Shown one piece after another: positions 17,586-21,721 of a DNA stretch of 21,721 nucleotides. The notes beneath the pieces are model-generated. The model was not told the DNA's origin. It did no database searches and saw only the letters and a list, made by a program, of their open reading frames with translations. The position numbers were made by a program, and so were the translations under genes. Source of the DNA: a virus; the IMG/VR virus record IMGVR_UViG_3300042523_000434, positions 1 to 21,721 of that record; one strand, 5' to 3'. Numbering within the stretch: position 1 is the stretch's first letter; each line of letters starts with the position of its first letter.

Positions 17586-17927
17586 ATGAATAATACTAAA
17601 AAGGGTGTAGAAGCGGTTGAGTCCACCGCAGAATACGGAATTTATGTTTGGGTCTTACCAAATGGAGAGCCATTTAAGGATGATGATGGCAACACGCTTA
17701 ATGTTCCTTCAATGAAACATGATATTAGAAATATGAACTCTCTTGCAAAAGCAGCAGCATACTGGGGCAAACCAGATGGTGTAGCAAAGTTTATGCCTGG
17801 AGTTGGAAGAGTTAGCGATACTCAGGCAAGAGAAGATATTGACAGAATGGCTGAGGGTTATACCCCTTACGGAGATACCGACAACTGGAAGGAAATTTTT
17901 GCAAATGAGCGAAAGAGTGGAAGATAA
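17586..17927 (+). CDS. Small conserved pre-portal protein (113 aa)
   Basis: YGIYVWVLPNGEPFKDDDGN (about residues 17-36), NVPSMKHDIRNMNSLAKAAA (about 39-58) and YWGKPDGVAKFMPGVGRVSD (59-78) match a family usually found directly before terminase or portal genes in actinophages. Its role is unknown, and the position suggests head assembly or packaging. There is no ribosome site before the ATG; a TATCAT hexamer lies 6 bases upstream, so a leaderless message is likely. The last 23 bases overlap the portal start. Confidence 0.83.
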   Translation: MNNTKKGVEAVESTAEYGIYVWVLPNGEPFKDDDGNTLNVPSMKHDIRNMNSLAKAAAYWGKPDGVAKFMPGVGRVSDTQAREDIDRMAEGYTPYGDTDNWKEIFANERKSGR

Positions 17928-19553: not shown

Positions 19554-19559
19554 TATAAT
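19554..19559 (+). promoter_or_regulatory. Possible -10 before the protease gene
   Basis: TATAAT, 9 bases before the ATG. The 12-mer TGTATAATTAAA (19552-19563) is repeated exactly at 8175-8186, also before a start codon. No -35 at 16-18 bp and no ribosome site. Confidence 0.4.
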
Positions 19560-19568
19560 TAAAGTGTT

Positions 19569-21347
19569 ATGATTAATTTACAAAAGGCTTCCCTTTCTAT
19601 GAATGGTAACAGCGTCAACTTGACCATGCCAATCTCAAAGATTGATGAAGAAAAGCGTATTGTTTCTGGCTTTGCAACACTTGATAATATTGACAAACAA
19701 GGCGATAGGGTGCTTCCAGAAGCATCAGAAAAAGCTTTTGCAAACTTTCGTGGTAATGTAAGATTGATGCACCAACCTATTCCAGCAGGAAAGGTTGTTT
19801 CTTTTAGATCAGACACTTTTTTCGACCCAGAAACAAAGAAGCAATATACGGGAGTATTTGTAGATACCTATGTTTCTAAGGGTGCTCAAGACATCTGGGA
19901 GATGGTTCTTGATGGTACACTCACTGGTTTTTCAATCGGCGGTGCAATTAAAGAAACAGATACTGAATTAGATGAAGAAACAAATAACACAGTTCGTATC
20001 ATTAAAGAATATGATTTGGTAGAGCTATCACTTGTTGATTCACCTGCTAATCAGTTTGCCAATATCTTTTCTATTCAGAAAACAATCGATGGTGATGTTG
20101 TTGATGGAATGTTTTCCAAGTCCAATATTCAAAATGTATTCTGGTGTGAACAAGAAGAAATGGCATATCTTTCAAATGAAGAAAAATATTCATGCTCTTC
20201 ATGCAGTTCCGATCTTCCATCTATTGGCTGGATTGACGAAATTACAAAAGCAAATGTTGAAGAAGCGATGTCAAAAGTAGTTGAACTACATAAGGCAGAT
20301 AATCCTGGAACTATTACAAGTGATGATGTTCCAAAGAAATATCCAAAGCAAAATCCAAGATTTTCAGATATTCAAACTGAAGAAAATCCTAAAAAGAAAA
20401 AGAAATATGTTAAAAAAGCAGGAGAGTATTCTCCTGGAGATTTTGTTCAGTGGGGTTCCTCAGGTGGGACAGCAAGAGGTAAAGTAACAAGAGTAGTAAC
20501 TAATGGTAAAATTAAAGTACCAAATTCTAGTGTTACAATTACAGGGACACCAGAAGACCCAGCGGTAACTATCAGAGTTTACGAAAAAGACGGAAACTCT
20601 TGGAAGCCGTCTAAAACAGTTGTAGGACATAGAATGAGTACACTTAGATCTTGGACAGTTAAAGTCCTTAAATCTATTGGCGTACAAACAGAAGTTTCTC
20701 TACCTAACACAGTAGTGAATGAGGCAAATGACGCAAAGTTAGTTGCCACACAAATAAATGAAGGAGGTGTTGATATGACTGAAAATAACGAAGTTGCAGA
20801 AGACGCTACAGTTGAAGAAATTGTAGAAGTAACAGAAGAAGTTGTAGTTGATGAAATTGTTGAAGCTGAAGAAGCTCCAGCAGTAGAAGAAATTGCAAAG
20901 TCTGATGAAGTTGAAGTAGCAGAAGATACAGTCGAAACATCCGTAGATACAGAGGGATCTGCAGATGACGCTTCCACCGATAGTGGTGAGGCGACTGACC
21001 TTGAAAAGACTCTTAGTGAAATCAAAAATTTTGTTGGCGAAGCTCTTACAAAGAGTGGCGAAACAAATGCTGCTGCTGTTAATGGTGTTGTAAACACTGT
21101 TGCAGAAGTAACAAAAGCTTTAACCGATAAGCTTGTAGAAAATGATTCTCGTTTAGAAGAGATCAACAAAGGTTTGGCGGATATCGTAAATGCAGTACAA
21201 ACAATTAATGGAAGATTGGAATCTGTAGAAAACGATACCGCTGTAAAGAAATCTGGGGAACTTGAGAGTTCCACAGAAACAACTATACAGAAGTCAGATT
21301 CTGTATGGGGGGGACGCTTCCTCAGTTCCTCGCAATACTTAAATTAG
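19569..21347 (+). CDS. Prohead protease fused to a scaffold domain (592 aa)
   Basis: The N-terminal 175 residues are an HK97-family prohead protease (S78/U35, XkdF-like). Proposed triad: H68 (VRLMHQPIP), S122 (GFSIGG) and E152 (DLVELSLVDSPAN), with spacing close to that in HK97 gp4. It cleaves the scaffold and itself during capsid maturation. Then comes a Cys segment (C193, C209, C212), a lysine-rich linker (near 274-283) and a beta-barrel-like domain (about 286-360: YSPGDFVQWGSSGGTARGKV...VVGHRMSTLRSW) resembling the small DUF2945/TUDOR-type fold. Residues 403-592 are acidic, helical and coiled, typical of a scaffold. An internal start at codon 403 is described separately. No clear ribosome site precedes ATG 19569. 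Confidence 0.9.
   Translation: MINLQKASLSMNGNSVNLTMPISKIDEEKRIVSGFATLDNIDKQGDRVLPEASEKAFANFRGNVRLMHQPIPAGKVVSFRSDTFFDPETKKQYTGVFVDTYVSKGAQDIWEMVLDGTLTGFSIGGAIKETDTELDEETNNTVRIIKEYDLVELSLVDSPANQFANIFSIQKTIDGDVVDGMFSKSNIQNVFWCEQEEMAYLSNEEKYSCSSCSSDLPSIGWIDEITKANVEEAMSKVVELHKADNPGTITSDDVPKKYPKQNPRFSDIQTEENPKKKKKYVKKAGEYSPGDFVQWGSSGGTARGKVTRVVTNGKIKVPNSSVTITGTPEDPAVTIRVYEKDGNSWKPSKTVVGHRMSTLRSWTVKVLKSIGVQTEVSLPNTVVNEANDAKLVATQINEGGVDMTENNEVAEDATVEEIVEVTEEVVVDEIVEAEEAPAVEEIAKSDEVEVAEDTVETSVDTEGSADDASTDSGEATDLEKTLSEIKNFVGEALTKSGETNAAAVNGVVNTVAEVTKALTDKLVENDSRLEEINKGLADIVNAVQTINGRLESVENDTAVKKSGELESSTETTIQKSDSVWGGRFLSSSQYLN
20761..20768 (+). promoter_or_regulatory. Internal Shine-Dalgarno AAGGAGGT inside the protease gene
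   Basis: A full match to the anti-16S sequence, 6 bases before an in-frame ATG (20775). It is stronger than the ribosome sites of the surrounding genes. Confidence 0.85.
20775..21347 (+). CDS. Nested scaffold protein from in-frame internal start (190 aa)
   Basis: Same frame and stop as the protease, starting at its codon 403 (MTENNEVAEDATVEEIVEVT). The product is an independent scaffold: a very acidic first half (Glu/Val repeats), then helices with a heptad pattern (LEKTLSEIKNFVGEALTKSG; LVENDSRLEEINKGLADIVN) and a basic Ser-rich end (VWGGRFLSSSQYLN). It would guide capsid assembly and be degraded by the protease. The arrangement mirrors lambda C/Nu3, where the scaffold is made in excess from an internal start. 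Basis: perfect Shine-Dalgarno plus a domain boundary at exactly this codon; expression itself is inferred. Confidence 0.78.
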   Translation: MTENNEVAEDATVEEIVEVTEEVVVDEIVEAEEAPAVEEIAKSDEVEVAEDTVETSVDTEGSADDASTDSGEATDLEKTLSEIKNFVGEALTKSGETNAAAVNGVVNTVAEVTKALTDKLVENDSRLEEINKGLADIVNAVQTINGRLESVENDTAVKKSGELESSTETTIQKSDSVWGGRFLSSSQYLN

Positions 21348-21374: not shown

Positions 21375-21721
21375 ATGAGTGATATTTTAGAAAAAGCCGC
21401 AACAAGCGGTACAGTTCTTTCTCCACTAACATCTCCTGGTGCTATGACAGCCCAGGGAAACTCTGGTGACGCAGGTGGTGTTCTTAACCCAACACAATCT
21501 ACACAGTTTATCGAATACATCTTTGATCAGATGGTTCTAGCTAACGATGGTCGCAAGGTAACGATGCGTGGAAATACTATGGAATTGGATAAGATCCGTG
21601 TTGGTTCACGTCTTGTAACAAAAGCTACACAAGCTGAAGATACAGGTGCAAACAGTGCTCCAGCATTCACAAAGATCGAACTTACAACAACAAAGTTCCG
21701 TCTACAGTACGAACTATCAAC
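21375..21721 (+). CDS. Major capsid protein, HK97 fold (partial, 5' end)
   Basis: The first 115 codons are present; the gene continues beyond the window. MSDILEKAATSGTVLSPLTS, GGVLNPTQSTQFIEYIFDQM (about 35-54) and the strand RGNTMELDKIRVGSRLVTKA are typical of HK97-type capsid proteins: a short N-arm, then the E-loop/P-domain start. It forms the icosahedral shell. The ribosome site AGGTGA precedes the ATG, 27 bases after the protease/scaffold stop. Order protease, scaffold, capsid is as usual. Confidence 0.88.
   Translation, partial: MSDILEKAATSGTVLSPLTSPGAMTAQGNSGDAGGVLNPTQSTQFIEYIFDQMVLANDGRKVTMRGNTMELDKIRVGSRLVTKATQAEDTGANSAPAFTKIELTTTKFRLQYELS

Follow-up and report, generated by a model that had tools for sequence, protein, structure and literature searches.

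The protease and the scaffold of the phage head are encoded by one gene in lambda, P2 and Mu (PMC8508860), and a passage of the same paper refers to Shaw and Murialdo 1980 for the overlap of C and Nu3 in lambda. Herpesviruses encode a protease-scaffold together with a C-terminally identical nested scaffold (UL26/UL26.5; PMC12474303), and in HK97 and T5 the scaffold is the N-terminus of the capsid protein (PMC10275583). Here we describe a head gene from a 21,721-nucleotide stretch of viral DNA (positions 1 to 21,721 of the IMG/VR record IMGVR_UViG_3300042523_000434; hereafter the window), the last complete gene of which is a prohead protease open reading frame (ORF) of 592 codons. Based on an internal Shine-Dalgarno (SD) site, its strength and nucleotide conservation, the domain layout of the protein and a major capsid protein (MCP) devoid of a delta domain, all of them read from sequence, we propose with a probability of roughly 0.88 that this is a two-product head gene, in which one frame gives both an S78 protease-scaffold fusion and a separate acidic coiled-coil scaffold from codon 403.

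An internal ribosome site within the protease gene

The motif AAGGAGGT stands six bases before an in-frame ATG (20775-20777), which is codon 403 of the ORF, as had been claimed in an earlier note made from the sequence of the window. The exact motif has two occurrences in the window, counting both strands. The anti-SD pairing of this ATG with the 16S tail amounts to -15.9 kcal/mol, and it is the sole ATG at or below -15 among the 795 present on both strands. The earlier note was also right in calling this the strongest ribosome site of the head module, since it is the top of the whole window and is followed by the start of the capsid gene (-9.8 kcal/mol), and in stating that the protease's own start lacks an SD, its anti-SD pairing being +0.2 kcal/mol. 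Two other uses of the site were considered and rejected: an SD serving another frame, as GTG 20768 and TTG 20770 reach a stop within a few codons, and an SD-stimulated programmed frameshift, as the conserved coding frame is frame 0 both before and after the site. A conserved slippery heptamer was not seen when the aligned codons were inspected by eye.

A single genome is weak evidence for such a site, because shuffling the synonymous codons of the window gene (protein and codon usage fixed) gives an equally strong one at the same place in about 12% of cases; this leaves some room for chance or amino-acid constraint, whereby the codons for the E-G-G preceding the methionine would happen to resemble an SD and the internal start would be unused. 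The relatives render this explanation extremely unlikely. Scanning IMG/VR yielded 212 relatives, 80 of them retained for reading; annotated phage records yielded 141 matches, and from these we took 14 protease loci of phages of Streptomyces, Rhodococcus and Alicyclobacillus. The 31 non-redundant representatives (<90% identity) comprise IMG/VR clades and the phages of these three genera; they cover several clades, whose identity to the window gene is about 41-68%, plus more distant phages. The junction holds the strongest internal SD-start in 31/31 representatives, with energies from -16.0 to -8.5 kcal/mol. It is at or below -10.5 kcal/mol in 29 of them, against only one of 1105 other internal in-frame ATG or GTG codons from long ORFs of the same loci, and none of these background codons reaches -12 kcal/mol. 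Conservation of the SD at homologous junctions, the check that the earlier note had set beforehand, is thus borne out, and it places the site far beyond chance. The junction SD is kept even in relatives without the Tudor-containing stretch upstream, and two contigs from bacterial metagenome-assembled genomes (MAGs; L099 and L100) also keep the internal SD-start.

The nucleotides, not the residues, are conserved, because the SD is read in different codon registers across clades. It is GAA GGA GGT, read E-G-G, in the window clade, AAG GAG G.., read K-E-x, in a large second clade, and AAA GGA GGT or a close variant, set further from the start codon, in the Boydwoodruffvirinae; a constraint on E-G-G does not account for clades that encode K-E-x and yet retain AAGGAGG. 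The internal start codon is ATG in 22 of the 31 representatives, GTG in the remaining nine and no other. GTG makes up 6-16% of the valine codons in the nine GTG-start genes, yet all nine start valines are GTG, which again argues against an unused start. The search for starts took in ATG and GTG only; it is nevertheless informative, since such a codon is always present and a valine at this position is always GTG.

The location of the site at a domain boundary, where pausing would help, raises the alternative that the SD-like sequence acts as a translational pause, allowing the N-terminal part to fold before the acidic tail, and not as a start. Such a pause needs no ATG or GTG at SD spacing, yet the start codon is kept in every representative, and the residues that come next are start-like ([MV]-[TAE]-[EDK]); we thus regard pausing as very unlikely and favour initiation at codon 403.

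Several observations weigh against the proposed two-product gene. In the window clade, codons 395-405 have zero synonymous changes, against a gene mean of 0.20, but some other short stretches are as quiet and the SD is not uniquely low within single clades, so that synonymous-rate windows are not decisive. Two Rhodococcus phages have weaker junction sites (-8.6 and -8.5 kcal/mol), and L098, a near relative of one Rhodococcus phage, carries a stronger SD elsewhere. A convincing counterpart was not found in distant S78 relatives from Ktedonobacterales/Chloroflexi MAGs, and the homologue counts include related sequences, which are hence not independent events. When single proteins were used as queries, that of Francesca retrieved one relative at 86% (L098), and that of NiceHouse gave zero matches against viral contigs. 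The locus L034 (from 4001) has an in-frame TAG at codon 207, upstream of an intact scaffold start, which reflects either an error in sequencing or a knocked-out protease.

Domain layout of the protein and the putative scaffold

The features of the gene and its surroundings are listed in Table 1.

Table 1. Features of the protease gene and its flanks in the window.
Feature	Position	Strand	Evidence
Likely -10 box (TATAAT), 9 nt before the protease ATG	19554..19559	+	exact match
Full-length ORF, putative prohead protease-scaffold fusion, 592 aa, ~64.5 kDa	19569..21347	+	
Peptidase_S78 protease domain, residues 29-171	19653..20081	+	Pfam PF04586, 9.2e-09; invariant columns
Small beta domain with three cysteines, residues 187-223	20127..20237	+	AlphaFold2 model
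Hva1_TUDOR domain, residues 290-336	20436..20576	+	PF11160, 1.9e-06
Internal SD site, AAGGAGGT	20761..20768	+	-15.9 kcal/mol; conserved in relatives
Putative nested scaffold gene, 190 aa, ~20.2 kDa, pI 4.05	20775..21347	+	M403 invariant in alignment; architecture
Start of the MCP gene, which runs off the window	21375..21721	+	PHROG_1623/phrog_10

The window protein belongs to the Peptidase S78 prohead proteases: its PF04586 match scores 36.1 bits, above the gathering cut-off of 21, and H68, S122 and E152 are invariant in the family alignment. These three residues are placed like a catalytic triad, which we take them to form. The small beta domain is possibly a zinc ribbon, with an FWC...CxxC pattern that many relatives keep and some do not, and the Tudor insert is limited in the alignment to the window's own clade, the other clades being without it. 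PHROG_9427 (head maturation protease) matches twice, once over the N-terminal part and once over the 190-residue C-terminal part. An AlphaFold2 model built from 17 homologues is poor overall, with a mean predicted local distance difference test score (pLDDT) of 48; it lays out the protease to about residue 175, the beta domain, the Tudor domain to about residue 366, an unstructured stretch (367-475), a single long helix of about 85 residues (476-560) and then a short C-terminal helix. Its best fold match in the PDB is a herpesvirus protease, a weak match (E=0.044) that is suggestive at most because of the poor model.

The earlier note had placed a change from a globular part to an acidic coil exactly at codon 403. 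The shift in acidity is indeed there, since aspartate and glutamate amount to 14% of residues 367-402 versus 38% of residues 403-475 (net charge -27), with the jump at the internal start; the change in structure is less sharp, as order ends near residue 366, where a linker follows, and the long helix begins near 476. An antisense ORF of 231 aa (window 20579-21274, minus strand) lies opposite the scaffold part and is probably a by-product of the repetitive E/V/A codons of the latter.

The 190-residue part thus comprises an acidic disordered stretch (403-475), the long helix (476-560) and a C-terminal peptide resembling capsid-binding ones. This peptide, S-x-W-x-G-x-F-L, ranks with the best conserved parts of the scaffold, as would be expected for a capsid-binding peptide. 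The MCP of full-length relatives has 330-379 aa with a short N-arm only and therefore no room for a delta domain; the N-terminal scaffold domain of about 100-170 residues that characterizes HK97/T5-type heads was not found in the MCP relatives. No annotated gene lies between the protease and MCP genes in the Streptomyces and Rhodococcus relatives, and no separate scaffold gene was found there. In the Limnohabitans phage DC31, the genes of the Tudor protein and the MCP flank another gene, which was considered as a separate scaffold candidate and rejected, as it encodes a different 131-aa protein.

The assignment of the 190-residue product as the scaffold follows from architecture and gene position, and the family profile, when compared with PDB sequences, matched nothing beyond generic coiled coils. 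The internal start could accordingly be real and its product have another role in the head, for instance as a regulator of the portal or of the protease. We consider this unlikely for a product that is an acidic coiled coil with a conserved C-terminal peptide and adjoins the MCP gene on its upstream side, in a family in which the MCP is without a delta domain and annotated relatives have nothing else between protease and MCP that could fill the role. A role as the main scaffold is the reading that we retain.

Proposed mechanism and initiation at the protease start

In the proposed scheme, translation from 19569 would give the fusion of protease, beta domain, Tudor domain and scaffold, and ribosomes binding the internal AAGGAGGT in vivo would give the independent 190-residue acidic coiled-coil scaffold from codon 403. 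Both products would end in the same scaffold C-terminal, probably capsid-binding, peptide and both would join the shell; owing to this shared peptide, the fusion would bring its protease into the procapsid along with free scaffold subunits. Degradation of the scaffold by this protease would then make way for the DNA.

The hexamer TATAAT, found upstream of the protease ATG, is by itself no rarity in the window, with 25 occurrences against 25.5 expected. Most of 30 representatives have a TATAAT-like box, often TGnTATAAT, that ends 6-10 nt ahead of the protease start; the exceptions are the Boydwoodruffvirinae, which are without a clear -10 box, and L079 and MMB025, which have an SD at the protease start instead. 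In bacteria, TANNNT located about 10-12 bp upstream of the start marks leaderless genes, a type that represents more than 20% of actinobacterial genes (PMC3160421). Given the position of the box 6-10 nt before the ATG, the protease mRNA is probably leaderless or near-leaderless, and such an mRNA may be translated well. The absence of an SD is thus no proof of weak protease translation, and the expectation of much more scaffold than protease, which the earlier note had derived from the two sites, is not supported as stated. We would only tentatively suggest that two initiation modes operate on one mRNA, a leaderless protease start and a near-consensus SD scaffold start, the balance of which would set the protease:scaffold ratio in actinobacterial hosts. 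TATAAT-like boxes also stand 5-6 nt before other gene starts of the window (8188, 9454, 12015 on the minus strand, and 17586), which suggests that this phage often uses leaderless mRNAs.

Related loci and annotation

Two further loci combine some of these domains in another way. In the Roseobacter phage CRP-811 (L109, 2084-4534), a single ORF of 816 aa fuses Tudor, S78 protease and capsid protein, and the strongest SD inside this ORF (aaggagaacactATG, codon 404, -8.2) falls between the protease and capsid parts; this internal start may release the capsid protein. The Limnohabitans phage DC31 (L097, 2027-3244) encodes, immediately ahead of its capsid gene, a Tudor domain and then a charged coiled coil; Pfam matches no protease there, and a weak SD precedes Met codon 276, downstream of the Tudor domain. 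Elsewhere in the window, a small gene (17586-17927; phrog_9394, function unannotated) precedes the portal gene, and a small gene is similarly placed ahead of the portal in the Streptomyces and Rhodococcus relatives.

Across the annotated relatives that we examined (phages of Streptomyces and Rhodococcus; >130 records match), the gene is named only capsid or head maturation protease. No scaffold or internal gene is annotated in the head regions that were read, including those of Jay2Jay, Coruscant and Circinus, and the literature searches made found no paper on an internal start in this phage family. The missing scaffold and its start codon are here proposed for the whole family, the annotation of which can be corrected. 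The proposal is directly testable, as several members of the family can be grown on laboratory Streptomyces.

Comparison with known systems

The window gene belongs to the nested protease/scaffold arrangement: one open frame (19569-21347) encodes the protease and, at its C-terminal end, the scaffold, and the conserved internal start of the latter has its own ribosome site. An S78-protease case is thereby added to this arrangement. The earlier note had likened the locus to lambda C/Nu3, and the likeness holds for the layout, with protease and scaffold in one frame and the scaffold C-terminal; lambda Nu3 is made from an internal start. It does not extend to the protease family. Lambda C is a ClpP-like (S49) protease, whereas the window domain matches Peptidase_S78 and no ClpP-like family, and homology to lambda C is not claimed; the window gene also differs in its extra beta and Tudor domains and its probably leaderless protease start.

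With herpesvirus UL26/UL26.5, the window gene shares a full-length protease-scaffold accompanied by a nested scaffold, as well as the weak PDB match to the herpesvirus protease. However, UL26.5 has its own transcript, whereas the second start of the window gene would be provided by a ribosome site, and the similarity is at best at the level of the fold. Heads of the HK97/T5 type have a detectably related protease adjoining an HK97-type MCP. The T5-like relative Kpn02 combines a 198-aa protease with a 460-aa MCP, whereas in the window family the putative scaffold is on the protease C-terminus and the MCP is limited to 330-379 aa. The PHROG_9427 phages of the Stanwilliamsviridae (Jay2Jay, Coruscant, Circinus) are direct homologues that share both the internal SD-start and the gene order; they differ by the lack of the Tudor insert and by a scaffold start that is often GTG.
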